Origin: an uncultured Paracoccaceae bacterium
Lineage (GTDB): Bacteria; Pseudomonadota; Alphaproteobacteria; Rhodobacterales; Rhodobacteraceae
DNA: 64,000 bases
Assembly: GCA_947488175.1 (NCBI GenBank)
Contig: CANKYO010000013.1
Coordinates: 1-64,000 of the forward strand
Direction: 5' to 3'
Below, piece after piece: positions 3,488 to 59,916 of this stretch. The position numbers and the translations under genes were made by a program. The first letter of the stretch is position 1. Each line of letters begins with the position of its first letter. The notes below the pieces were generated by a model. That model worked only from the letters and a program-made list of their open reading frames with translations. It ran no database searches and was not told where the DNA came from.

Positions 3488-4168
3488 TTACTGGATATCC
3501 ATAGATCGCTGTCTGGCAGATTGAAGGATAGTTTCGGCGTACTTGAGCAGTTCGCTGCGGTCCGCATTTGCACCGAGTTGTATGATCGCCAACTTTGCCG
3601 CTGCGAGATACTTGGGCTGAGGCGAAGCGCTGATATATGCGGGTTGTCGCTTTGTTTGGTCTTGCTGATTGTCTCCGCTCCAGACTTTGCGGATACGTAG
3701 TTTGCCGGCGCGGCTTGCCAATCGATCTACCAGTTTCCGTCTATGTGGCAAGGCAGCACGGAGTTTGCGGTCCAAGGTGGGATCGTTCTTCATCAACAAC
3801 GCAACCGCTAGCAAAGGTCGGGTCATTCCGATGTCGATTGCGGCGAGGGCTTTGAAGCGATCTATTCGGTTCTGGGAAAAGAGCGCGCCGTGACGGAGTT
3901 CCGGCGCGAGCACACCAGAGGCTTGCAGCGTCAAATCCATCCGTCGACCAGCATGCCGGTCCCTGTGCCGATTGGCGAGCCTCAGCCACTTCGCTCCTTC
4001 TTTGGCGCGGGTGCGGAGCCGGGTGGGCAGGTGCGCATGTGCCGTTGGATCACGGCGCACTGGCGACAGCTCGGACCCGCAGACTTCGCATTGCAAGGAC
4101 CAGGCGTAGCGCCAATGGCGCAGAGATAGCGGACTTTGATCAACAAGTGTCGCGTCAAGCGCGAACAT
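3488..4168 (-). pseudogene. TniQ-like zinc-ribbon protein, probably 5'-truncated
   Basis: The frame encodes 226 residues. The N-terminal part, LRHWRYAWSLQCEVCGSELSP, recalls the W...C..CG region of TniQ, the targeting subunit of Tn7/Tn5053-like transposons. The rest is basic and lacks recognisable domains. The N-terminal zinc-binding half expected of TniQ is absent and no transposase genes surround it, so I read it as a remnant. The assignment is weak; it may be an unrelated hypothetical protein. Confidence 0.3.
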
Positions 4169-6544: not shown

Positions 6545-6570
6545 ACATTTCGGTCGCCTATATCTGCACC

Positions 6571-42666: not shown

Positions 42667-43266
42667 TCATCGTTGCCTCGCAAAATACGTCTCAAGTCGA
42701 GCATTGCTAATGTCGCTATCATAGCAGATTGGGCTATATCCACCGGGCCGTGACCACGCGCTCCTTGCGCCACAACGCCGCCCCCCACGATCGACATTGT
42801 AAGGGCACGGGCAAGAGCCAGGATACGCTGCTATACTCTGGCGGATGATCTCCCGCCGAGCCGTTTGAATCTCACGACTAGTTGGCGTTGCGATGCTCCG
42901 TACGGGTGCTCGGGTCGTTGGAACGTCAACAGATGGCCGTGAGCTTGACAGGTAAGTCGAGGAAATCCAGCCGCGTCCGAGCGATGACACGATTTGTGTC
43001 CAGCCGTCGGATGCAGACACAAATCGTACACGCGCCGCTTCATTTAGTTGCCCCATAACCCTGTGGTCTGTTCCGGGCCCAATGCGCTGATTCACACGGC
43101 TTCCCGTCACGTACAAATATGATGACACATTTGTTGATGTGATGCTTTCCCGTGGCGATGTGATTGTCGAACTTGACCCTGAAGTCCCGCCCGTTTCTGT
43201 CGGGTCGGACTGTCCAACCGTATAGAGGAAAAAGGCGACCAGTCCGATCCAAATCCAGTGTTTCAT
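42667..43266 (-). CDS. Exported SH3b-domain protein
   Basis: A 199-residue protein with an N-terminal hydrophobic segment (HWIWIGLVAFFLYTVG), a Ser/Thr-rich linker, an SH3b domain at about 53-107 (LYVTGSRVNQRIGPGTDHRVMGQLNEAARVRFV, GWTQIVSSLGRGWISSTYLS) and a Cys-bearing C-terminus (YPGSCPCPYNVDRGGRRCGARSAW), the 'YPG-C-x-C-P' pattern seen in other SH3 exported proteins. Probably cell-wall associated. Stand-alone. Confidence 0.8.
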   Translation of the reverse strand: MKHWIWIGLVAFFLYTVGQSDPTETGGTSGSSSTITSPRESITSTNVSSYLYVTGSRVNQRIGPGTDHRVMGQLNEAARVRFVSASDGWTQIVSSLGRGWISSTYLSSSRPSVDVPTTRAPVRSIATPTSREIQTARREIIRQSIAAYPGSCPCPYNVDRGGRRCGARSAWSRPGGYSPICYDSDISNARLETYFARQR

Positions 43267-48130: not shown

Positions 48131-49387
48131 CTATGATCGATGCCCAGTTTCGCGCGCGTGAATTCCCAGAATGACCAAAACCGGCCACAGCATATAGGCC
48201 TCGATTTCTATATTTTCCCCAAAGGACAAGAGCGTCAGCGTCATCATGATGCCCATCGGCAACCGACCGCGTGGGCCTTTGGCTGCGTCAATGATCGCGA
48301 TCAGGGTTTGCCAGACGAACGGAACCAGCAGGGCCAGCATGCCGACGACACCTTTAACAAACAACAATCCCCACCACGTGTGATGGCTGCCAATCGGCAT
48401 GTATTCCACCAAATGCGGCCCCGGCTGCACCCGTCCGTGCCCAAACCAGAAAGCTTCGTTGATCCAACGCTCACCCGCAATGCGCTGCAGTGTTTCCCGC
48501 ACGCGGGTGCTGTCGGCCCGTGCGCCTTTGAATGCTGCAATCACCTCCCCCGCCGCTGACGCTAAGGCCGCTCCAACGATGGCCAGTGATGCGGTCAGCC
48601 CCGCCACCATTTGCCAGGCCCATCCGCGCAGGATCAGTGGCATCATCCGCGGACCAATCGTGCAAGCAACCAATCCAACCAGCCCCATGCGCGACTTGGA
48701 CGCGACGATCATCAATATGCCCGCAGCGATGCCGATCGTTTTCCATTTGATCGCCTTCTCTTCCAGCGCAAACAGGATCATGACGACACCTAGTAACGCT
48801 GCAAATGGCGACCAAGGTGCGTAAAACTGCCAGCGCGGTGTCCAGCTGGACGGATCGTATGTGAAGAAATAGACGCTGAAATATTCGGGCCCCGGCCCGC
48901 CGATGGCTTTGAATGGTGAGGTGAAGATTTTTTCGGGCAGCCCAATATGCGGCGCGGCCAGCAAAATGGGCGCCAATATCAATGTGCCCAACCCGATCAC
49001 GCATTGCCCCCGGATCAGAACCTCTCTGCGGATGGGAAGCACGGCGCCGGCCAATGGAAACAGCGCCATCAAGGCCCAGCCTTTGGCCCAGCCAATCGTT
49101 GATTTGATGGTTTGCACGATGCCCAATGACCAATCGAGATGACCGACCCACAGGGCAACAAGCATCACGAACATGCCGATGATCCACGCCCAGATGACAG
49201 GCGGGATACGCCCTGTGGCCCGGAGATCCGGGCGCATCGCGGGTCCAAGAAACAGCGCCAAGACCGCCAGCCCACCCAGGACCCACGCCAGAACCGGGCC
49301 GACCACATACAGCGCGCCAATGGCGTAGAACGGCCAAGTGTAGACAAGGGTTTTGTAGACCAATCGCTCGACCGGGTTCATGATCAT
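48131..49387 (-). CDS. O-antigen ligase/polymerase-like membrane protein (Wzy type)
   Basis: A 418-residue protein with ten or more membrane segments (FYAIGALYVVGPVLAWVLGGLAVLAL, IGIAAGILMIVASKSRMGLVGLVAC) and a periplasmic loop with WINEAFWFGHGRVQPGPHLVEYMPIGSHHTWWGLL, the Wzy_C/WaaL-type region (H-x-x-W). It probably polymerises or ligates the exopolysaccharide repeat unit. ATG 49387 overlaps the stop of the chain-length gene by one base. Confidence 0.82.
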   Translation of the reverse strand: MIMNPVERLVYKTLVYTWPFYAIGALYVVGPVLAWVLGGLAVLALFLGPAMRPDLRATGRIPPVIWAWIIGMFVMLVALWVGHLDWSLGIVQTIKSTIGWAKGWALMALFPLAGAVLPIRREVLIRGQCVIGLGTLILAPILLAAPHIGLPEKIFTSPFKAIGGPGPEYFSVYFFTYDPSSWTPRWQFYAPWSPFAALLGVVMILFALEEKAIKWKTIGIAAGILMIVASKSRMGLVGLVACTIGPRMMPLILRGWAWQMVAGLTASLAIVGAALASAAGEVIAAFKGARADSTRVRETLQRIAGERWINEAFWFGHGRVQPGPHLVEYMPIGSHHTWWGLLFVKGVVGMLALLVPFVWQTLIAIIDAAKGPRGRLPMGIMMTLTLLSFGENIEIEAYMLWPVLVILGIHARETGHRS

Positions 49388-50829
49388 CAGGCCACTCCGG
49401 TCGTTTTCTTGATCAGCGTTGTGATGATGGCGGACCGGGTCCAGCCAAGCAGTAAACCGATAATCATCATGAAGGTTGCAGCCCCACCCGCCGCAATGGC
49501 GAGTTTGCGGTTCGGAGATGAGGGTGCGTCAGGCAATGACGGATTTTCAAGCACCTGAACCAGCGGGTATGACGCGTAGACATCAGACTTTGTCGTCTGT
49601 GTTCGGGCAATTGCCGATGCAAAAACTGCCTCTGCCACGGAGAAATCCCGCTGCAAATCCTGAAGAAGTGCGGCGGCTGAGGCCATCTCATCCAGTCGCG
49701 CGGATTGCGCGGTGTTTTGCGCAACCATGGCGTCAAACTGTTCCTTCGCGCCCATGTATTTTGCATGCATGCCAACCAATTCGGCCAACAGCGCTGCGCG
49801 TTCGCCGTTGGGTGCGACATCCAATCCTGCCAATTGCGCGGCAGAAAGCCCTGTCAAACCGACGGCACGCGCTGTTGCCGCGCCATCTGCCTGTGCCTTG
49901 GCACGCCCGGCGTCTTGGACCTTTGGATGGCTTGTACCATATTGCGACAATGCATCAGCAAGGTCAGCCGCATGATCTGCCGCCTGATCGATCAGCTGTC
50001 GGTATTCATTGTCCGCAAACAGTTTCAACGTGACTGCGGCCAAGGACACATCGATGCCCAAGCTAACCGCTAACGCATTCAAGGCCGCTTCTTGTTCAAA
50101 GACGATGGCCTGCTGATTGCGAAGTTCAGCCTCTAGTATCGTGTGTTGGGCCAACAACGCGTCATATTGCGCGACAGACAAAAGCCCGGTCGAAGCCTGT
50201 AGGTCTTCGATGTCAATACGCGTCGACGCCACTGAATCGCGGTAGTCTTGAATGGCGCCCAGACTGCTATCTTCTCGGGTTTGTTGTTCGTCAGCACGTA
50301 GCGCATCTAATTCGGCAAAGAAGGCCGCCAGAATAGCATCGCCGCGCGCTTGCGCCTCTGCCGGTGATCCGCCTGTCGTCTCAAAATGGATCAGGCTGGT
50401 TTGATCCACCAGATTGACCCGGGGCCTGCCAAGATCAGCCCGCGACAAATCAAGACTGTCCGCTGCCGCATCAACAATGCGGTCGGCATCCAGCAGGCGT
50501 TTATATGTCTCTGTCGGGCTGACAGCGTTACTGGCAAAAGCCGAGTTTGCGTAGGAAGAGGCTTGGCCGATCCCATTTAGGTTCATCGATGCCGATGCCC
50601 CCGACCCCGGCAAGATCAAGGACGTCGTCGATTTATAGGTAAGCGGAGCGGCCTTAAGGTAGCCGGTGATCGGCCCCCAAATGGCTGCCCCGCCAAGAAG
50701 CGCAAACGCGATGTAGCGGGGCAACCGCCCCAAATCCGCCAGTTTGCCGCCAATGATTGCGCGCTTTAATCGTCCCTTAACTGTAGGGGCGTCCAGGTTC
50801 GTGAGTGGTGGATGTATCGCTGTTGTCAT
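49387..50829 (-). CDS. Polysaccharide chain-length/GumC-like (Wzz) protein without kinase
   Basis: A 480-residue protein: two membrane helices (about 36-57, YIAFALLGGAAIWGPITGYL; about 444-466, LAIAAGGAATFMMIIGLLLG) enclosing a Wzz domain with long coiled coils (DSVASTRIDIEDLQASTG, RQLIDQAADHAADLADALSQYGTSHPKV). Pro-rich LPDAPSSPNRKLA before the last helix is the Wzz motif. There is no tyrosine-kinase domain. Ribosome-binding site AAGGAG. A CTATCC-type dyad lies 100 bases upstream. Confidence 0.85.
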   Translation of the reverse strand: MTTAIHPPLTNLDAPTVKGRLKRAIIGGKLADLGRLPRYIAFALLGGAAIWGPITGYLKAAPLTYKSTTSLILPGSGASASMNLNGIGQASSYANSAFASNAVSPTETYKRLLDADRIVDAAADSLDLSRADLGRPRVNLVDQTSLIHFETTGGSPAEAQARGDAILAAFFAELDALRADEQQTREDSSLGAIQDYRDSVASTRIDIEDLQASTGLLSVAQYDALLAQHTILEAELRNQQAIVFEQEAALNALAVSLGIDVSLAAVTLKLFADNEYRQLIDQAADHAADLADALSQYGTSHPKVQDAGRAKAQADGAATARAVGLTGLSAAQLAGLDVAPNGERAALLAELVGMHAKYMGAKEQFDAMVAQNTAQSARLDEMASAAALLQDLQRDFSVAEAVFASAIARTQTTKSDVYASYPLVQVLENPSLPDAPSSPNRKLAIAAGGAATFMMIIGLLLGWTRSAIITTLIKKTTGVA

Positions 50830-50921: not shown

Positions 50922-50937
50922 CTACCCGTTCGGATAG
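50922..50937. promoter_or_regulatory. CTATCC-N4-GGATAG dyad, site 1
   Basis: CTACCCGTTCGGATAG, one mismatch from the consensus. It lies between the response-regulator stop (50939) and the GumC-like start (50829), centred 100 bases upstream of that start. Confidence 0.6.
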
Positions 50938-50938
50938 T

Positions 50939-51553
50939 TCAGAACAGGCCAGCCTCGCGGGCAGTCAAAGCCGCTTGCGTGCGGTTGGTTGCATCGACTT
51001 TGCGAAACAGGGTCTTCATATGCAGCTTCACGGTTGGTTCAGTAATATCCAGATCGCGGGCGATTTCCTTGTTGGATTTGCCTTCAGTCAGACCTTTGAG
51101 CACCTCAAGCTCTCTGGCGGATAGTTTGTCTGCCAGCGGGTTGCTTGGGGTCTCTTCGACCGCTGTCATGAAATCAACAGGCGCGTATTGTTCGCCCATG
51201 GCCATGAAACGGACGGCGTTGATCATGGACTTGGCCGACAAGGTCTTGGGCACAAATCCGGCTGCCCCCGCCTCTAACGCTTGTTCGGCGATTTCACGTT
51301 TCGCCTCGCCAGAGATCAGGGCCACCCGCTGGCCACCCTCCATTTCCAGCGTCCGGATCAATCCGCTGAGCCCGTTCATGCCGGGCATGTTGTAGTCCAG
51401 CAAGATCAGATCATAGGGCTCATCGGATGTAATGCGTGTATGGGCCGCGTCCAATGTGCCGACAGCGGCTGTTTCGATGCCGTTTTCGCTCTGCAAGTAC
51501 AGAACCAGCATGTCTCTGAGCAGGTCGTGATCGTCAGCAATGAGTACGCGCAC
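50939..51553 (-). CDS. NarL/FixJ (LuxR-type) response regulator
   Basis: A 204-residue two-domain regulator. Receiver: Asp7, Asp8, phosphoacceptor Asp53 (LLDYNMPGMNG), Lys103 (FVPKT). Output: LuxR helix-turn-helix at about 143-204 (LSARELEVLKGLTEGKSNKEIARDLDITEPTVKLHM). Its own promoter region has the dyad at 51645-51660, centred 100 bases upstream. It probably acts with the hybrid kinase at 54755-57265 to control the locus, binding the CTATCC dyads (inference). Confidence 0.88.
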   Translation of the reverse strand: MRVLIADDHDLLRDMLVLYLQSENGIETAAVGTLDAAHTRITSDEPYDLILLDYNMPGMNGLSGLIRTLEMEGGQRVALISGEAKREIAEQALEAGAAGFVPKTLSAKSMINAVRFMAMGEQYAPVDFMTAVEETPSNPLADKLSARELEVLKGLTEGKSNKEIARDLDITEPTVKLHMKTLFRKVDATNRTQAALTAREAGLF

Positions 51554-51644
51554 AGATTATTCCTTTTTAACGCACGCGCCCCCGCGTGCTGCGATCATAC
51601 ACCTCTTAGGTGTGTTGCGTCACCCACGAATTCGGTGATGCATC

Positions 51645-51660
51645 CTATCCGGATGGATAG
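51645..51660. promoter_or_regulatory. CTATCC-N4-GGATAG dyad, site 2
   Basis: CTATCCGGATGGATAG, arms perfect. It lies between the divergent response regulator (start 51553) and the WecG fusion gene (start 51807). A possible -35 TTGACA at 51674-51679 follows on the + strand, placing the dyad where class I activators bind. Confidence 0.7.
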
Positions 51661-51806
51661 TTTTCCGTCGAATTTGACAAAAATTTAGCTCATCAGCGCC
51701 AATCCTCTCTCCTCTGACCCACGCACCTGTCCCGTCGCTTCGTTGAGCGGTCGCAGCCTTTCCCACAACCTTAGGTCAACAGAAATCAAACCTAAGGACG
51801 ACCCAG

Positions 51807-53195
51807 ATGCAACACAGCAAAATCGACTTTCTTAAAGCCACGCCACTGGAAGCACGCAGCGGCACAAAGACCACCTATTTACCCGCGCTGGGTTTGACTT
51901 TGGTCGACGCCGATAAGCAGACAGCCATCAATGCATTGCTGGCACCGGGATACCGCACAGCGTTCTTCATGAACGCCCATTGCTGCAATGTGATGGCGCA
52001 GGACCAAAAGTACGCGGGCGCGGTGCGTCGGGCAGATGTTCTGCTGCCCGATGGGATTGGGGTTAAACTGGCAGGCAAAATGACCGGTCACGAACTGGCG
52101 GCCAACCTAAATGGCACGGACCTCATTCCGCTATTGTTGACGCAAGCGGCGGACATGGGCAAATCCGTGTATCTATTCGGCGGCACACCCGGCACCGCTG
52201 AAGCTGCAGCAAACAAACTGACGACGGACATTCCTCACTTGCGTATCGCAGGCACAAGAGACGGCTTTGTCGGCGCACTTGATCCCAATTTGGTGGTTGC
52301 CGATATTAACGCAAGCCGCGCGGACATCGTCATCGTTGCGATGGGTGTGCCCATGCAGGAAATGTGGATTGACCGCTACGCGCACCGGCTTGATGCGCCC
52401 TTATGTTTAGGTGTCGGTGCCGCACTTGATTTTCTTGCGGGCAACGTAACACGCGCGCCCAAAGTCGTGCGCAAGGCAAAGATGGAATGGGTGTGGCGTT
52501 TGGCGATGGAGCCAAAGCGCCTGGCCAAACGTTACCTGATCGGCAACGCCACATTCCTGGCCCGTGCAGCAACAAAAGCGCTGCAACAAACCCCGAGGCG
52601 GCACATCAAAACCCGGGTGATGGATGTCAGCATTGCAGCGCTTGCCTTGGTTGCCCTCGCACCCGTCTTTGCGGCAACCGCCATCGCTGTCAAAGCCGAA
52701 ACAAAAGGCCCTGCCCTTTTCCGTCAGACCCGCATTGGCAAGAATGGTGAAAAATTCTCGATGTTGAAGTTTCGATCCATGCATCAGGATGCCGAAGCGC
52801 GGCAGGCCGAGATATTGAACGCTTCGGACCGCGAAGGTGTGTGTTTCAAGTCGCGCACGGATCCACGGATCACGAAGGTGGGCCGGTTTATCCGCCGCGC
52901 CTCTATCGATGAGCTTCCGCAGTTGATCAACGTGCTGCGCGGTGACATGTCGATTGTTGGCCCAAGACCCGCCCTGCCCCGTGAAGTCGCCCGATATCCG
53001 ATGCGCGCATTCGGCAGGCTGGCAGTAAAACCCGGCATCACAGGTCTCTGGCAGGTCTCTGGCCGCGCGAACATCGGCTTCGACAAAATGGTCGAGATGG
53101 ATCTGGCTTATGTCAGCGCCCGCACCATGCTGCTTGATATCATCCTGATCCTCATGACCTTCCGCGCCGTCATGTCCGGCCGTGGCGCCTATTGA
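51807..53195 (+). CDS. Fusion of WecG/TagA/CpsF glycosyltransferase and polyprenyl-phosphate sugar transferase
   Basis: A 462-residue protein with two enzymes. Residues about 25-250: WecG/TagA/CpsF transferase (FFMNAHCCNVMAQDQKYAGAVRRADVLLPDGIGV, LNGTDLIPLLL, VIVAMGVPMQEMWIDRY). Residues about 265-462: WbaP/PssY-type priming transferase (TRVMDVSIAALALVALAPVF membrane helix, LFRQTRIGKNGEKFSMLKFRSM, SIDELPQLINVLRGDMSIVGPRP, GITGLWQVSGR). It could attach the first sugar-phosphate to undecaprenyl phosphate and then the second sugar. Ribosome-binding site AAGGA. The site 2 dyad is upstream. Confidence 0.88.
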   Translation: MQHSKIDFLKATPLEARSGTKTTYLPALGLTLVDADKQTAINALLAPGYRTAFFMNAHCCNVMAQDQKYAGAVRRADVLLPDGIGVKLAGKMTGHELAANLNGTDLIPLLLTQAADMGKSVYLFGGTPGTAEAAANKLTTDIPHLRIAGTRDGFVGALDPNLVVADINASRADIVIVAMGVPMQEMWIDRYAHRLDAPLCLGVGAALDFLAGNVTRAPKVVRKAKMEWVWRLAMEPKRLAKRYLIGNATFLARAATKALQQTPRRHIKTRVMDVSIAALALVALAPVFAATAIAVKAETKGPALFRQTRIGKNGEKFSMLKFRSMHQDAEARQAEILNASDREGVCFKSRTDPRITKVGRFIRRASIDELPQLINVLRGDMSIVGPRPALPREVARYPMRAFGRLAVKPGITGLWQVSGRANIGFDKMVEMDLAYVSARTMLLDIILILMTFRAVMSGRGAY

Positions 53196-53221
53196 TCCGA
53201 TACACCTGAAAGGACTTTCCA

Positions 53222-54109
53222 ATGACCCGGATTCGCAAAGCAGTCTTCCCCGTCGCCGGCATGGGCACCCGTTTTCTTCCGGCCACAAAATCCATCCCAA
53301 AAGAGATGCTGCCACTGGTTGACCGGCCTCTGATCCAATATGCAATTGATGAGGCGCGCCAGGCTGGCATCGAGGAATTCATCTTTGTCACAGCCGCAGG
53401 CAAAGGCGCGTTAGAGGACTATTCCGACACGGCTGCGGCCTTGGAACAGCGGCTCGAAAAGAATGGCAAAACCAAAGCGCTGGCAGCGTTAGAGCCAACC
53501 CAGATGCCCGAAGGCGCGCTGACATTCATCCGCCAAAGCCAACCCAAGGGTTTGGGGCATGCCGTCAAACTTGCAGCGCGTGCCGTCGGCGATGAACCCT
53601 TTGCGGTGCTTTTGCCTGACGACGTCATCCGCGCGCCACGCGGTGCGTTGGCTCAGATGGTCGACGCACACGCATCTACCGGCGGGCACATGGTGGCCAC
53701 GATGAACGTACCACGCAATGACACATCGTCCTACGGTGTTTTGGATGTCGAAACGGAGAATGCCAAATTCGCCAAGGCCCGTGGGTTGGTTGAAAAGCCC
53801 CGCCCCGATATCGCACCGTCAACACTGGCGGTCGTGGGACGATATATCTTGGAGCCATCAATCTTTGATCGACTGGCAGATCAGGGGCCCGGCGCAGGTG
53901 GGGAAATTCAATTGACCGACGCCATCAACGCGGATGTGCAAAATGCAGACGTGACAGGCTACCGCTTTGACGGCAAACGTTTCGATTGCGGCTCAGTCCA
54001 GGGGTTTGTGCAAGCCACCACAACTTTTGCGCTCGATCGTCCTGAATTACGTGCCGAATATGACCAGTTCCTCAGGGGGCGTCAGGAACACCTGTCTCAG
54101 GTTGCCTGA
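53222..54109 (+). CDS. galU: UTP-glucose-1-phosphate uridylyltransferase
   Basis: A 295-residue nucleotidyltransferase: AVFPVAGMGTRFLPATKSIPKEMLPLVDRPLIQYAIDEA, SQPKGLGHAVKLAARAVGDEPFAVLLPDD, GEIQLTDAINADV and FDCGSVQGFVQA. It makes UDP-glucose for the exopolysaccharide. It starts 26 bases after the fusion gene, with GAAAGGA as ribosome-binding site. A hairpin containing the site 3 dyad follows the stop. Confidence 0.92.
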   Translation: MTRIRKAVFPVAGMGTRFLPATKSIPKEMLPLVDRPLIQYAIDEARQAGIEEFIFVTAAGKGALEDYSDTAAALEQRLEKNGKTKALAALEPTQMPEGALTFIRQSQPKGLGHAVKLAARAVGDEPFAVLLPDDVIRAPRGALAQMVDAHASTGGHMVATMNVPRNDTSSYGVLDVETENAKFAKARGLVEKPRPDIAPSTLAVVGRYILEPSIFDRLADQGPGAGGEIQLTDAINADVQNADVTGYRFDGKRFDCGSVQGFVQATTTFALDRPELRAEYDQFLRGRQEHLSQVA

Positions 54110-54113
54110 TGCC

Positions 54114-54143
54114 TAGCCACCTATCCGAACGGATAGGTGGCTA
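54114..54143. promoter_or_regulatory. CTATCC-N4-GGATAG dyad, site 3, within a longer palindrome
   Basis: CTATCCGAACGGATAG at 54121-54136, arms perfect, extended to 14-bp arms (TAGCCACCTATCCG / CGGATAGGTGGCTA). A half-site CTATCCG follows at 54141. It lies 80 bases before the SUOX-fold gene. A TATAAT at 54185-54190 is the likely -10. Confidence 0.7.
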
Positions 54144-54215
54144 TCCGTCTGCCTTCGTGAGTCTGAAACGGCTTTGTGCCAGAATATAATCAACACCACT
54201 TATTGGAGCTAACCC

Positions 54216-54725
54216 ATGACATCGTTTTCCAAGAACTTCGCCGCTGCGATGGCGATTGTATCTGCATCGACGGGCAATGCTCAAACGCTGGATATGCCCA
54301 AAGACACCGTTGTTCTGACCGTCAGCGGGGCTATCGCGGCTGCAAATATTGATGACACGGCCCAGTTTGATATCGCGATGCTGACCCAAATTGATGCCAC
54401 CATGATCGAAACGACAACCATCTGGACCGAAGGCGAACAAACCTTTGAAGGTGTCTCACTTGATGTCTTGATGGATCAGCTTGGCGTCAACGAAGGCACA
54501 ATTTTGGCCACCGCAATCAATGACTACACCGTCGAAATTCCGGTGTCCGATGCCGTTCCCGGCGGGCCCATCATTGCGTATCACATGAATGGGAACGCCA
54601 TGTCTGTGCGCGACAAGGGCCCTTTGTGGGTTGTCTATCCCTACGATAGCGGCACAGACTTTCAATCAGAAGTAATCTACTCTCGCAGCATTTGGCAGCT
54701 CGACCGGTTGGAAATCGTCGAGTAA
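54216..54725 (+). CDS. Exported sulfite-oxidase-fold (molybdopterin-binding-like) protein without cysteine
   Basis: A 169-residue protein with a signal peptide (FSKNFAAAMAIVSASTGNAQ) and the SUOX core: VVLTVSGAIAA, QFDIAMLTQIDATMIETTTIWTEGEQTFEGVSLDVLMDQLG, YTVEIPVSDA, VRDKGPLWVVYPYD. There is no cysteine in the whole chain, so the Mo-ligating Cys is missing and no enzyme activity of the usual type is expected. It lies directly before the hybrid kinase, 29 bases apart, and may be its periplasmic input (inference). Confidence 0.82.
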   Translation: MTSFSKNFAAAMAIVSASTGNAQTLDMPKDTVVLTVSGAIAAANIDDTAQFDIAMLTQIDATMIETTTIWTEGEQTFEGVSLDVLMDQLGVNEGTILATAINDYTVEIPVSDAVPGGPIIAYHMNGNAMSVRDKGPLWVVYPYDSGTDFQSEVIYSRSIWQLDRLEIVE

Positions 54726-54754
54726 CAATCGTCTCAGGATCGAAGGGATCACTT

Positions 54755-57265
54755 TTGACAGAGACTGAAACGCCCCCCAAATGGATCCGCCGAGGGCAAG
54801 TTGCCGTGGTGGGTCTTCTCGTTCTGGCCGCCATCGCGGTTTTGGGGTTTTCTGTTGCTGAAGATCTGGAGGAGCTTGAAACCGCACGCTCTGACAACCT
54901 GCAGTGGCATCTGGCGCAAACCGAGGTTGAATTCCTGGCCTTCGCCACCAGTCTGAGCATGGCCAACTCGGGCCGACTGGAGGATCTCACAGAGGTCCGC
55001 CAACGATTTGATGTGTTCTATAGCCGTATTGCGACCATCGAATCTGCCGCAAACTACAAGCCTTTGATGGAGGTTTCTGAATTTGAGAACGCACTGACCA
55101 AGGTGCGTGCCTTTCTTGATGAAACCGTGCCTTATGTGGATGCGGATGATGCCGGTTTTCAGGCCGCGCTGCCCGACATTGCGGCACAGATCGAAATGGC
55201 CAGATCGGATGTACGTCAGGTCGCCACCTCCGCGCTGCATTTCTTCACGATCAGAGCAGACGAGCGCAGGGCCGACTTTGCACAAACGTTGATAAAGCTT
55301 GCAGCAGCGGTCGCTCTACTTATCGCGGCTCTTGGCACAACGATATTCTACCTGCGCCGTCTGAACATCCAGCGGACACTGCGTCAACGTGAGGTCGAAG
55401 AAACAGCAGCGCGTATGGATACCGTGATCCAGACCTCGCTTGATGGCGTCATTGTAGCGAATGAAGAAGGGCACATACTGGCCTTCAACGCGGCAGCAGA
55501 AACGATATTTGGCCACATGGCCGAAGACGTGTTGGGCAAATCGCTGGGCCCGTTGATCGTACCTGAGCACATGCTTGATGCCCACGAAGCTGGTATGGAA
55601 CGCATGCGTCAAGGCGGTGAAAAGCGTGTTGTTGGCAAAGGACGTGTAAAGCTAGAAGCCAAGCACAGCGACGGGTCGATCTTTCCTGTCGAACTTGCCA
55701 TTCAAACCGCTGAAACCAACCAAGGCACTATTTTCGTGGCCTTTTTGCGGGATATTTCCGCCAGTGTGGCCGCCGAAAGAGAACTGATTTCAGCACGCGA
55801 TCAGGCCCTTGCCGCGGACCGGCTCAAGACTGAATTTCTTGCCACTATGAGCCATGAAATCAGGACCCCACTGAATGGTCTGTTGGGGAACCTAACGCTT
55901 CTTCAGGATACGCATCTTAACGCCAATCAACTCCGCTACATCCGCAATATGGATACGTCAGGGGCTTTGCTGCTGAAACATGTCACCGACGTGCTTGATT
56001 TGTCGCGATACGACGTGGGTCGATTGGATTTACGGTCAGAGCCGGTCAATTTGGCAGACCTGATCCAATCCATCGTCGACAGCCAAAGTGGGCTGGCGAC
56101 AAGCAATAACACATCGATTGAATGGCGCTGGATTGGGGAAGCTTCCAATTGGGTGAAATCCGATCCCGATGCACTGCAACACATGTTGATAAATCTGGTC
56201 GGCAATGCGGTGAAATTCACCCACGACGGAAATGTTTCAATCACCGTTGAAGCGCGCAAGATTCAGGACACATCTGCGGATGTGCTGTTTCAGGTCCACG
56301 ATACTGGCGTTGGGATGGATGACGATCTGCGTGAAAAGATATTTGACGATTTTGTCACCGGCACAGTGGCCTACGACCGGGATGTGGGCGGCACCGGGCT
56401 GGGATTAGGGATCGTGCGCCGCTCGGTCGACGCCTTAGGCGGTATGATACATGTTGAAAGCGCGCCGGGCAAAGGCAGCCGTTTTGAGGTCAATGTGCCT
56501 TTGACGCTAACATGCCGACCAAATCAAGATCCAGTTCTGAAACAAGCGACCGAACCTTTGGGTGGTCTGCATATCCTGGTTGTTGAAGACAACGAAATCA
56601 ATCGTGCGGTGGTCCGCGAAATGCTGCGTGCCGATGGACATATGATCGAAGAGGTATCAAACGGGAAAGAAGCCGTGGAACTGGCGGCCGAGGCACACTT
56701 TGATCTGATCCTCATGGATATCAGCATGCCCATCATGGACGGTCAGACAGCGACACGCGCGATTCGACAGGGGAATGGCGCCTGCGCAACGACACCCATC
56801 ATCGCATTGACCGCAAATGCGATGGCGTCGGAACAAGCAGCCTTTTTAGAGGACGGGATGAACAGTGTTTTGATCAAACCACTGTCGCGCACCGCACTAC
56901 GCAAAGAGATCAACGAAATTGCCGCGAAATCGATTCTGGCCGAAGCGCTTGAAGAACACCCAAACCCCGGCAATGAAATGCGAGCGGTGCTGGGGGATGA
57001 CGCCTATAACGTGATGCGCTCTCGGTTCATTGCTGAGGTCGACGATTTACATGGCTGGCTCGGTGCAACCTCCCTGCCCCCATTGTCTGAAGTTGTACAA
57101 CGTTGTCACAAGACCGCAGGCAGCGCGGGCATGTTCGGCGCAGAAGAGTATTGCGCTGTTCTGATCGCTATCGAAGATTCCGCCAAGGAATTCGATCAGC
57201 AGGCGGTGATGACAACCATATCGACATTAGACGAAGTCTGGCAGCGATCTCAGCGTACCTTCTAG
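54755..57265 (+). CDS. Hybrid sensor histidine kinase with receiver and HPt domains
   Basis: An 836-residue kinase from TTG 54755 (AAGGGA six bases upstream). Two membrane helices (about 15-38 and 173-197) bound a periplasmic helical sensor; then PAS (MDTVIQTSLDGVIVANEEGHILAFNAAAETIF), HisKA with His367 (MSHEIRTPLNG), HATPase (NAVKFTHDG, GGTGLGLGIV), receiver with Asp655 (LILMDISMPIMDG) and HPt with His785 (CHKTAGSAGMFGA). A full internal phosphorelay, likely ending on the LuxR-type regulator at 50939-51553. Its 3' end overlaps the convergent Wza gene by four bases. Confidence 0.9.
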   Translation: MTETETPPKWIRRGQVAVVGLLVLAAIAVLGFSVAEDLEELETARSDNLQWHLAQTEVEFLAFATSLSMANSGRLEDLTEVRQRFDVFYSRIATIESAANYKPLMEVSEFENALTKVRAFLDETVPYVDADDAGFQAALPDIAAQIEMARSDVRQVATSALHFFTIRADERRADFAQTLIKLAAAVALLIAALGTTIFYLRRLNIQRTLRQREVEETAARMDTVIQTSLDGVIVANEEGHILAFNAAAETIFGHMAEDVLGKSLGPLIVPEHMLDAHEAGMERMRQGGEKRVVGKGRVKLEAKHSDGSIFPVELAIQTAETNQGTIFVAFLRDISASVAAERELISARDQALAADRLKTEFLATMSHEIRTPLNGLLGNLTLLQDTHLNANQLRYIRNMDTSGALLLKHVTDVLDLSRYDVGRLDLRSEPVNLADLIQSIVDSQSGLATSNNTSIEWRWIGEASNWVKSDPDALQHMLINLVGNAVKFTHDGNVSITVEARKIQDTSADVLFQVHDTGVGMDDDLREKIFDDFVTGTVAYDRDVGGTGLGLGIVRRSVDALGGMIHVESAPGKGSRFEVNVPLTLTCRPNQDPVLKQATEPLGGLHILVVEDNEINRAVVREMLRADGHMIEEVSNGKEAVELAAEAHFDLILMDISMPIMDGQTATRAIRQGNGACATTPIIALTANAMASEQAAFLEDGMNSVLIKPLSRTALRKEINEIAAKSILAEALEEHPNPGNEMRAVLGDDAYNVMRSRFIAEVDDLHGWLGATSLPPLSEVVQRCHKTAGSAGMFGAEEYCAVLIAIEDSAKEFDQQAVMTTISTLDEVWQRSQRTF

Positions 57266-58491
57266 CTTTTTTCTCGAAGCAGGGCTGCAGCGCCGATGAC
57301 CCCGATCACCCGACCAATCTCGGTCACGTTCGTCACCGCGCTGTCGTAGCAAGCAAGTGCATCACCGGGCAACAGATAGGGATCAAAATCGTCCCGATCC
57401 GCCCTGCGTAACAAGTCTTCAATGTCGCGTTCGATCACAACCGATACACCCGTCACCGGATTGCGTGAAAACAAAACCGATGACCGGTCCGCACTTGTCC
57501 CGCGGGCACCACCGACGCAATTACTGTCAATCACGGCCTGCATATAGCGGGTGCCATAGGGTACTTCGCGGACGGTTTGTCCAATTGCAGACGCCGCATT
57601 ATTCGTGGCTGGCTGCGTCAGGTTCGACAAAAACATGCTGACGCCCGGTGGGCTTATTGGACTGGGCCGCATCAGGTCTTCTTGAAAACACTGGCGACTG
57701 GGCACGTCTATCTCGTCCCCGGTCAGCAACATAATGTCCACAACATTCTGTCCCCGGAAAACGCCGCGCATATCCAGCCTATAAACCGTTGCCCCCCGAC
57801 GCACAGTGACCGCCGAAATATCCGCGTCCGGACGCACACCGCCAGCGGCGCGCAAAGCAGCCGATAGGTTGCGGCCTTCGCTGGAAGCACCCAGCGCGTC
57901 CTGCCTGCGGCCATCAACCTGATCCCCGGTCACGCCACCGATTTCTACGGAATGGGGTTCGAAAACGGCGCCTGACACGCCCACCGTCACTGAGGCAAAA
58001 TCAGCAACCCTTACAGATATGCGCGGAAGTTCGTCATAAAATGCGTCACTAAGAAGTTGGCTGGCAATATCATCTTCGATCTGATCCGTTGTCCGCCCCT
58101 GCGCAGGAATGGGGCGCAGAAACGGTAATTTCAGCGTCCCGTCACGGGATATGACGTAGTCGCCATTGAACGTCTCATCGTCGCCGACACGAATATCGAC
58201 AAGATCATTGCGCGTGAGCCGCTCCCCCCTCAGCGCGGCTGCCGAAAAACCTGATCCTTTGCCCCCATTCTGCTGTGCTTCAACGCCGCCGCGTAAAGGC
58301 AGACATTTGCTTTCATTGATGCGCGCAGATCTTAGAAACTCTGCGTCGCTGCGGGCGACATCAATGTCCCGGTATTGCGCCTGATACCCGTCACCAACCG
58401 CCACAGATTCAAGGTTGTCAGGCACATCATAAGTTGCGCAGCAACTCAGAAATGCCGTGGCTAGGCCAGGAAGGATTGTACGCACTGGCAT
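57262..58491 (-). CDS. Polysaccharide export outer-membrane protein (Wza-like)
   Basis: A 409-residue exporter: N-terminal export signal with CC at 17-18 (possible lipoprotein, weak lipobox), Poly_export domain (LVDIRVGDDETFNGDYVISRDGTLKLPFLRPIPAQG, YDELPRISVRVAD), SLBB-type domains (GVSGAVFEPHSVEIGGVTG, DISAVTVRRGATVYRLDMRGVF, GDEIDVPS). It forms the outer-membrane pore of the polysaccharide machinery. The site 4 dyad lies 82 bases upstream. Confidence 0.87.
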   Translation of the reverse strand: MPVRTILPGLATAFLSCCATYDVPDNLESVAVGDGYQAQYRDIDVARSDAEFLRSARINESKCLPLRGGVEAQQNGGKGSGFSAAALRGERLTRNDLVDIRVGDDETFNGDYVISRDGTLKLPFLRPIPAQGRTTDQIEDDIASQLLSDAFYDELPRISVRVADFASVTVGVSGAVFEPHSVEIGGVTGDQVDGRRQDALGASSEGRNLSAALRAAGGVRPDADISAVTVRRGATVYRLDMRGVFRGQNVVDIMLLTGDEIDVPSRQCFQEDLMRPSPISPPGVSMFLSNLTQPATNNAASAIGQTVREVPYGTRYMQAVIDSNCVGGARGTSADRSSVLFSRNPVTGVSVVIERDIEDLLRRADRDDFDPYLLPGDALACYDSAVTNVTEIGRVIGVIGAAALLREKS

Positions 58492-58572
58492 AGGGCACTC
58501 CGCTCACAAAATTACTGTCCCTTTGTTAGGCCAAGATGACCGAGCGGTCCATGATGCAATCAGGGCGTGATC

Positions 58573-58588
58573 CTATCCAAACGGATAT
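58573..58588. promoter_or_regulatory. CTATCC-N4-GGATAG dyad, site 4
   Basis: CTATCCAAACGGATAT, one mismatch at the last base. It lies between the divergent Wza-like gene (start 58491) and the flippase (start 58687), able to serve both. Confidence 0.62.
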
Positions 58589-58686
58589 CGGGGTGACCCG
58601 TTGCCCCGTTGGACTGGCCTTACAGGACGAAGACGGGGGTGGTTTTGCGTTGGTATGACGGGGCAACGCACTCGAAAGCTGACGCT

Positions 58687-59916
58687 ATGCCCTGGACCAC
58701 GAAAACCCTTGCCCAAAACTTGTTCGCCTACGGCGCATCCGAAGTCGCGGCCAAGGCGTCACGTCTGTTGGTCGTGGTTGCTGTAGCCCGCACGTTAGAG
58801 TTGACCGAGATCGGCCTTGCTGCTGCGGCCTTCGCCGCCGGTGATGTGCTAAAGTCCGTGACCGAAAACGGCGTTGGTCAACGGATCATCGCGGCACATG
58901 ACGATAAACTGGACGCGACATGCGCCACCGCCCACCGCATCTTTTGGGTTTGGTGTGTCGGGCTATTCATCGCGCAGGTTGGCATCGGGGCCGCGATCTA
59001 CGCCACCGCTGGCAGTGCGATGCTGTTTGCGCTGATCGCAATCCTGGCCGCAGAATATCTGTTCATGCCCGCAGGATTGGTACAAGCCGCCCTTGCGATG
59101 CGGGCCGGTCAGCTGCGGGCCACGGCAGGGATCGCTGGTGCACAGGTCGTCGGTGCCAACATCATGTCGGTCATCCTGGTCTTCTTTTGGCCAAGCGCCA
59201 TCGCATTGGTACTGCCCCGCTTGCTGGCCGCGCCGATCTGGTTGATCGCCATGCGGCGGCTGCACCCTTGGCAGCGGAACACCCAAGCGGGTTTTGCGCC
59301 ACTGCCCCCATTCATCCAATTCGGTTGGGCTGTTCTGGGCGTCGAAATCGTCAAGGCGCTACGCCTTCAGGCCGATAAGATCATCATCGGGGCGATGATG
59401 GGGGCGGAAGCACTTGGCCTTTACTTCATGGCGTTCAATGCGGGCCTAAGCCTGTCCAACGCCTTCTCGACAGCCTTCTCGACAGTACTGTTCCCCCATC
59501 TTAGCCAAGCGCGGGACAAGGCTATAGCCCTGCGCCAAAGCATCCTGTTAGGGATTGGCCTAATCACCCCGGCGGTCCTGATCCAAGCGGCACTGGCCCC
59601 GGTTTACGTGCCCGTCCTGTTCGGCCCCGGTTGGGACGAAGTGGCCGGCATCGTGTCCGTGCTCTGCCTGGTCGCAATCCCAACAACGCTATGGTCAGCC
59701 ATCGCAGGCTGGTTGCGCAGCGAAGGACGCCCGCAAGCAGAACTGGTCGGCACAATCGGCATCACCCTTGGCCTCGCATGCAGCACCATCATGCTTGTCC
59801 CTTACGGCCTTTTGGCAGTGGCCACTGGATATGCCGTCGCCTGTTTCACGTTGATGTCCATCGCCTCCCTTCCCGTCATTCTGGCCAACCTTGGCCCCAC
59901 CAAAGAAAGCGTCTGA
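58687..59916 (+). CDS. Polysaccharide flippase (Wzx/MOP type)
   Basis: A 409-residue, 12-helix MOP superfamily protein: TLAQNLFAYGASEVAAKASRLLVVVAVARTLELTEIGLAAAAFA at the start, KALRLQADKIIIGAMMGAEALGLYFMAFNAGLSLSNAF in the middle, and SVLCLVAIPTTLWSAIAGWLRSEGRPQ. It flips lipid-linked units to the periplasm. ATG 58687 is the typical family start; the frame is open upstream to 58609. The GT2 gene follows after two bases. Confidence 0.87.
   Translation: MPWTTKTLAQNLFAYGASEVAAKASRLLVVVAVARTLELTEIGLAAAAFAAGDVLKSVTENGVGQRIIAAHDDKLDATCATAHRIFWVWCVGLFIAQVGIGAAIYATAGSAMLFALIAILAAEYLFMPAGLVQAALAMRAGQLRATAGIAGAQVVGANIMSVILVFFWPSAIALVLPRLLAAPIWLIAMRRLHPWQRNTQAGFAPLPPFIQFGWAVLGVEIVKALRLQADKIIIGAMMGAEALGLYFMAFNAGLSLSNAFSTAFSTVLFPHLSQARDKAIALRQSILLGIGLITPAVLIQAALAPVYVPVLFGPGWDEVAGIVSVLCLVAIPTTLWSAIAGWLRSEGRPQAELVGTIGITLGLACSTIMLVPYGLLAVATGYAVACFTLMSIASLPVILANLGPTKESV

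Follow-up and report, generated by a model that had tools for sequence, protein, structure and literature searches.

Pterins outside the cell are emerging as a signal used by bacteria. In the PruR-DcpA-PruA pathway of Agrobacterium tumefaciens, a pterin-binding PruR is coupled to a periplasmic domain and surface polysaccharide is controlled, with c-di-GMP turnover as the output (PMC13259868). A second arm, PruR-DTB, in which PruR is found with a DcpA-TorS-BaeS-type kinase, is described from Proteobacteria including Ruegeria pomeroyi; the sections of this 2026 review that treat the two arms give an output only to the c-di-GMP arm and present PruR-DTB without a named response regulator, DNA site or target (PMC13259868). 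No paper describing an output, regulator or site for PruR-DTB, or the DNA motif reported here, was found in the open-access library searched. Among other two-component systems, BvgS-BvgA and EvgS-EvgA use a hybrid kinase with receiver and Hpt domains that acts on a LuxR-family regulator, and NarL recognizes inverted-repeat sites of the form TACYYMT in a 7-2-7 arrangement.

The exopolysaccharide locus studied here belongs to a marine bacterium. It lies in a window of 64,000 nt, the whole stretch of DNA that was analysed, and contains the following genes.

48131-49387, minus strand: protein co-oriented with gumC, perhaps O-antigen-ligase/polymerase-like (function guessed by eye)
49387-50829, minus strand: GumC-like chain-length/export protein (PF13807 GNVR, under the curated cut-off)
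50939-51553, minus strand: NarL/FixJ-type response regulator with receiver and GerE/LuxR HTH (PF00072, PF00196), the proposed dyad binder
51807-53195, plus strand: WecG/TagA glycosyltransferase fused to a sugar-phosphate transferase, for priming (PF03808 and PF02397)
53222-54109, plus strand: GalU-like nucleotidyltransferase (PF00483), probably co-transcribed with the WecG fusion across a 26-bp gap
54216-54725, plus strand: homolog of the PruR-type periplasmic pterin-binding protein, SUOX fold (Oxidored_molyb Pfam match, 169 aa)
54692-57265, plus strand: DTB-type hybrid kinase with N-terminal WX7E domain, PAS, HisKA, HATPase, receiver and Hpt-like C-terminus (Pfam)
57262-58491, minus strand: Wza-like polysaccharide export protein (PF02563)
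58609-59916, plus strand: Wzx-like flippase (PF13440), likely start ATG 58687

The initial annotation of this DNA had labelled the products of the two sensor genes a SUOX-fold protein and a hybrid kinase. What it missed was the identity of the sensor, a PruR-type pterin-binding homolog with a DcpA-like kinase partner, as indicated by Pfam, solved structures and conserved residues. Compared with the solved chains named 'Pterin Binding Protein', PruR gave E-values of 1.7e-37 (7rkb) and 1.3e-35 (7kos). The protein has zero cysteines, so that the Mo-ligating Cys is absent, and its N-terminus appears hydrophobic, by eye only, a possible sign of secretion to the periplasm. Asn102, Tyr104 and Trp160, positions considered in the review (PMC13259868) in connection with how the Agrobacterium PruR binds pterins, are kept in 64/64 aligned orthologs. 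The kinase, whose true start is probably the in-frame TTG at 54755, carries WX7E, listed in the review as a motif of DcpA-type periplasmic domains (PMC13259868), with W72 in 66/66 and E80 in 63/66 rows with letters, and it is on this motif that the likeness of its N-terminal domain to the DcpA domain rests. His388, receiver Asp676 and Hpt His806 are conserved in a 68-row alignment, the Hpt domain scoring below the Pfam cut-off.

Because of the PruR homology and residues, together with the WX7E motif and conserved phosphorelay residues of the kinase, the pair matches the PruR-DTB configuration. As in the review's outline of PruR-DTB, there is a two-gene pair comprising a PruR of ~170 aa that lacks the Mo-binding Cys and an adjacent WX7E sensor with PAS, HisKA, HATPase and receiver domains, giving a cytoplasmic histidine-kinase output. 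Unlike the system as outlined there, the kinase adds an Hpt-like domain, and a response regulator, DNA site and targets are proposed here. Pfam found kinase domains and no GGDEF or EAL domain in the sensor, which sets it apart from the PruR-DcpA c-di-GMP pathway. With the A. tumefaciens system, as far as the review describes it, the locus would share the coupling of a pterin-binding PruR to a periplasmic domain and the control of surface polysaccharide, but its output is c-di-GMP turnover, in contrast to the kinase and transcription factor of this locus.

The response regulator has NarL (1a04) as its nearest solved chain and has the features of the NarL/FixJ family, namely a receiver with its phospho-acceptor Asp53 (81/81) and a GerE HTH. 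The helix EPT(V/I)KLH is almost invariant in the regulator-anchored set described below, and reads TVKLHMK here against TVKVHVK in NarL. By sequence this regulator is very probably the output of the PruR-DTB pair. The arrangement of a hybrid kinase with receiver and Hpt domains acting on a LuxR-family regulator is that of BvgS-BvgA and EvgS-EvgA, but periplasmic sensing here would lie in a separate PruR-type protein plus the WX7E domain.

Four copies of a 16-bp dyad, CTATCC-N4-GGATAG, occur in the locus, with mismatches counted against this pattern.

50922-50937, no strand: CTACCC-GTTC-GGATAG, one mismatch, gumC promoter region, 1 bp past the stop codon of the response regulator gene
51645-51660, no strand: CTATCC-GGAT-GGATAG, exact, divergent response regulator/wecG promoter region
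54121-54136, no strand: CTATCC-GAAC-GGATAG, exact, pruR-kinase promoter
58573-58588, no strand: CTATCC-AAAC-GGATAT, one mismatch, divergent wza/wzx promoter region

The initial annotation had reported these four dyads, with centres 88-155 bp before six gene starts and two of them 100 bp from a start codon. A pattern scan of the window returned the same coordinates with 1, 0, 0 and 1 mismatches, and the distances came to ~100 bp for GumC, 100 bp for the response regulator, 154 bp for WecG, 88 bp for SUOX/PruR, 90 bp for Wza and 106 bp for the flippase, the last assuming the in-frame ATG 58687 instead of the mechanical TTG 58609. The initial annotation had not found the dyad elsewhere in the window, and no fifth copy was found in the 64,000 nt at up to one mismatch. 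The sole two-mismatch copy in the window, at 43210-43225, lies outside the locus and is within chance expectation. The full consensus is CCTATCC-GWWC-GGATAGG. The half-sites are 10 bp apart and their TAYCC resembles the TACYY of NarL, whereas the outer half-site letters, the spacer and the regulon differ from those of NarL.

In the source genome (4.74 Mb, 36 contigs), the dyad matched at 7 places with up to one mismatch, 4 of them within the locus. Only two exact dyads occur genome-wide, both in this locus, and the three places elsewhere (L176, L177 and L178) all fall inside long ORFs of 446-650 aa. The expectation from density for a 7.7-kb stretch is 0.01 site, giving P(≥4) of ~4e-10, a post hoc figure; the real proof of the dyads is their conservation in relatives. 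The reversed control pattern matched 6 times in the same genome, much as if four similar palindromes had been spotted by eye through chance, but the conservation of the dyad, followed over 80 loci and 195 genomes, and the permuted-palindrome control below lead us to reject that reading as having a negligible probability.

Conservation was assessed in a regulator-anchored set made up of the regulator's best 80 relatives among named genomes, to which the per-gene counts add L179 and L180. In total, 155 dyads with up to one mismatch, 79 of them exact, were spread over 64 of these best 80 loci. By comparison, 59 palindromes made by permuting the dyad's letters gave a mean of 1.8 sites (maximum 13) and 0.05 exact, and spacers other than 4 gave 0-8 sites and zero exact. 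The 'private regulon' put forward in the initial annotation is thus borne out by the comparison with relatives as well as by the genome-wide scan. The dyad was present in 42/44 polymer loci, defined by a match to GumC or WecG or by Wza and PruR together, with partial matches in a few cases. It was present in 20/26 loci with PruR, kinase and regulator that lack a GumC, WecG or Wza match (some with GalU, some on short contigs), and in 2/10 regulator loci without a PruR match, some of which are truncated by contig ends. At up to two mismatches, a dyad stood upstream of 41/43 GumC, 66/70 PruR, 37/40 Wza and 37/39 Wzx orthologs in this set, less frequently upstream of the regulator (52/81) and WecG (32/45), and upstream of GalU in 4/27. 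The median distance for Wzx, 35 bp, uses the mechanical TTG and is ~78 bp short if the start is ATG 58687. Two loci, L106 and L113, have Wza/Wzx relocated by ~7 kb to the far side of the regulator, and there the pair has an exact dyad of its own. The 48131-49387 protein, for which a Pfam search gave no match, was found in 41/80 loci, the same number as have GumC.

The promoter of pruR carries two further elements.

54141-54146, plus strand: third half-site, CTATCC, at offset +20 from the start of the 54121 dyad
54177-54185, plus strand: candidate extended -10, TGc-CAGAAT, at offset +56 from the 54121 dyad

Among the 104 distinct pruR promoters that have a dyad with up to one mismatch, 52% carry the third half-site at +20 (at least five of six letters of CTATCC) and 58% carry TGn with a weak -10 (at least three of six letters) at +56 or +57. 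Because the extended -10 stands at a fixed offset, the centre of the pruR dyad is predicted to lie ~63 bp before the transcription start, a placement common to many activators. The same offset analysis of the GumC, Wza, regulator and WecG promoters gave no sharp -10. That the regulator 'drives' its targets, as the initial annotation had it, is a reading of promoter geometry with a predicted transcription start. It could instead bind the dyads as a repressor that keeps the polymer genes silent until the kinase switches to phosphatase activity, in line with the lower biofilm formation caused by the PruR pathway in A. tumefaciens and the limit on attachment imposed by PruR-DcpA, as the review relates them (PMC13259868). 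Repression is nevertheless unlikely, as the predicted distance of ~63 bp and the extension of the third half-site toward the -35 are activator-like, and the pruR-promoter dyad is clear of the predicted -10.

The site at 54121 also extends to AGCCACCTATCC-GAAC-GGATAGGTGGCT, a 12-bp perfect stem after galU, which could suggest a role for the dyads at the RNA level, as terminators or as hairpins in leaders. A T-run is absent after this stem, however, and the extra symmetry comes partly from the third half-site. Moreover, it is the letters of the half-sites that are conserved and not their pairing, since 54/76 one-mismatch sites break a pair, although two-sided changes are excluded by the selection for up to one mismatch. 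An intrinsic terminator or RNA hairpin was accordingly rejected, and we consider such a role very improbable. On sequence grounds, the dyads very probably serve the local NarL-type regulator as its operators.

Support for the regulator as the binder comes from its co-occurrence with the dyad. PruR matches were found in 125/195 genomes of the order, and a PruR-anchored set of 96 further regions was drawn from at least 120 among the matches listed, every fifth being omitted; it overlaps the regulator-anchored set by at least 5 loci (identical regulators). Where a close regulator (at least 250 bits) was present, a dyad with up to one mismatch stood upstream of pruR in 13/13 cases. With a distant regulator it did so in 17/57 at up to one mismatch and 32/57 at up to two, and with a very weak or no regulator match in 0/26 and 1/26, respectively. 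Permuted controls upstream of pruR gave means of 0.03 and 0.9 of 96. Exact dyads anywhere in the genome followed the same trend: 36/40 genomes with a close regulator, counting the source genome (68 sites), 24/74 whose regulator is more distant (32 sites), and 5/81 without a regulator at E≤1e-45 (5 sites), which is background. The reversed control gave 9 sites over all 195 genomes. Comparison of close regulator against none yielded a Fisher p of 7e-21, a value uncorrected for kinship. Among the nine window genes compared, the regulator is the sole DNA-binding one present in both kinds of dyad locus, those that have polymer genes and those that lack them.

The form of the site also varies with the regulator, a CTATAC form of the half-site appearing among distant regulators. 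For scoring, base 5 of the half-site was left free, the remaining letters were allowed up to one mismatch, and each distinct regulator protein was counted once. Among regulators with Pro173 (n=71), base 5 was C in 136/142 half-sites; among those with Val173 (n=43), it was C in 36, A in 38, G in 6 and T in 6 of 86. The outermost base and the spacer showed smaller shifts between the clades. By alignment to NarL, residue 173 immediately precedes the TVK of the HTH, a position we take to be the start of the recognition helix. Pro and Val switched once on the receiver-domain tree, and therefore the form of the site follows the regulator clade, which leaves residue 173 as a candidate cause. Scorable sites for both clades occur together in four sampled genomes; two differ as expected (G209, CC/AA; G203, CC/CA) and in two the expected difference is absent (G182, CC/CC; G113, CA/AC). 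With one switch on the tree and 2/4 two-clade genomes as expected, co-variation of site and residue is weakened as an independent proof. The pruR promoters of L225, L234, L252, L291 and L295, from the Val173 clade, have dyads of the CTATAC-N4-GTATAG type with 0-1 mismatches.

A regulator encoded elsewhere could bind the dyads, the local one being merely nearby. This would account for the regulator-bearing loci that lack a dyad (8/10 without a PruR match, 6/26 with PruR, kinase and regulator, and 2/44 polymer loci) and for the two-clade genomes in which the expected site difference is absent, and binding by the local regulator is itself deduced from sequence. But exact dyads drop to background in genomes without the regulator, the form of the site tracks the regulator clade overall, and no other DNA-binding gene among the nine compared is common to both kinds of dyad locus, so that we regard a distant binder as quite improbable. 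The local regulator as the dyad binder is well supported because of conservation, co-occurrence and the clade-linked relaxation of the site; the dyads in loci without a GumC, WecG or Wza match likewise support it.

We infer regulator binding, the sign of regulation, phosphotransfer and the pterin signal from the sites and from homology, and consider the following model likely as a whole. Periplasmic PruR would bind a pterin and report it to the hybrid kinase at the latter's periplasmic domain; the His-Asp-His relay of the kinase would then set the phosphorylation of the regulator. A phosphorylated regulator dimer would bind the dyad, with a further subunit probably joining on the third half-site at pruR. 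The regulator would then turn on gumC, wecG-galU, wza and wzx, as well as pruR-kinase and its own gene, and thereby place polymer priming, flipping and export, along with its own synthesis, under one self-reinforcing exopolysaccharide regulon, almost private in this species and controlled by a PruR-DTB phosphorelay.

The dyad recurs in relatives where the regulator adjoins a relative of known pterin-binding sensor proteins, and therefore probably marks genes that such sensors control. In L111, a metagenome-assembled genome labelled Reyranellaceae and hence outside the order, PruR, kinase and regulator are contiguous and exact dyads occur at 6561 and 12349, one upstream of pruR and the other between a mannose-1-phosphate guanylyltransferase (ManC-type) gene and a divergent HlyD-like and GT2 pair. 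This layout is presumably alginate-like, and the assignment outside the order may reflect a binning error. L041 has PruR, kinase and regulator without polymer genes, and one-mismatch dyads at 21 and 10616, one of which precedes the gene for a GEVED/DUF11/SdrD_B surface protein of 1963 aa. The broader proposal, for which we see the case as evenly balanced, is that PruR-DTB pairs, in Rhodobacterales and outside it, act as transcription switches that respond to pterins, and that their whole regulon can be read through one DNA code, CTATCC-N4-GGATAG (CTATMC in the second clade). Reduced pterins would then directly set exopolysaccharide transcription, and the code would be reused across different polymers (Wzx/Wza, the HlyD/GT2/ManC type of L111, and the giant surface protein of L041). 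If true, this supplies the PruR-DTB arm with its regulator, operator and regulon, and target genes become predictable in many marine bacteria from sequence alone. The reduced pterins would perhaps be shared between cells or with algae, and any dyad promoter would serve as a simple reporter for identifying the pterin signal.

Further dyads were seen near other genes. In L053 and L062, a family 2 glycosyltransferase gene comes after a dyad situated past the kinase, and in L094 one ORF intervenes between the two. These, like the dyads of L111 and L041 above and of L160 below, are single cases. A selection of non-locus sites in 16 genomes that have only PruR, kinase and regulator, with canonical-looking sites preferred (L150-L175), placed 15/30 sites inside mechanical ORFs, a few of them spurious, such as one antisense to PruR in L157. 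Intergenic sites precede varied genes, including a LysR-type regulator (L150), a Hint/Big protein (L163) and a sugar-transferase ORF (L160, a one-mismatch site ~80 bp upstream), and the site in L162 sits between convergent genes. No extra regulon members are claimed for these genomes, in which no common target emerged beyond a protein of 118-120 aa (L153, L169). Dyads lie near its gene at 3657 and 4196 in L169 and at 3658 in L153 (Yoonia maritima and Loktanella sp. S4079). The protein is 57% identical between L153 and L169, two genera, and a transthyretin-like gene is nearby by eye. In L169, the two dyads terminate two copies of a direct repeat of ~230 bp beside a tRNA-like gene, again by eye, and the dyad region of L169 and L153 is possibly a non-coding element. 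Finally, a CTATCC/GGGTAG dyad is found at L159 3783 in genome G070, in a second locus that holds WecG, GumC and a kinase and, truncated where the fetched sequence stops, a regulator of only ~50% identity; G070 has a separate locus with PruR, kinase and regulator.
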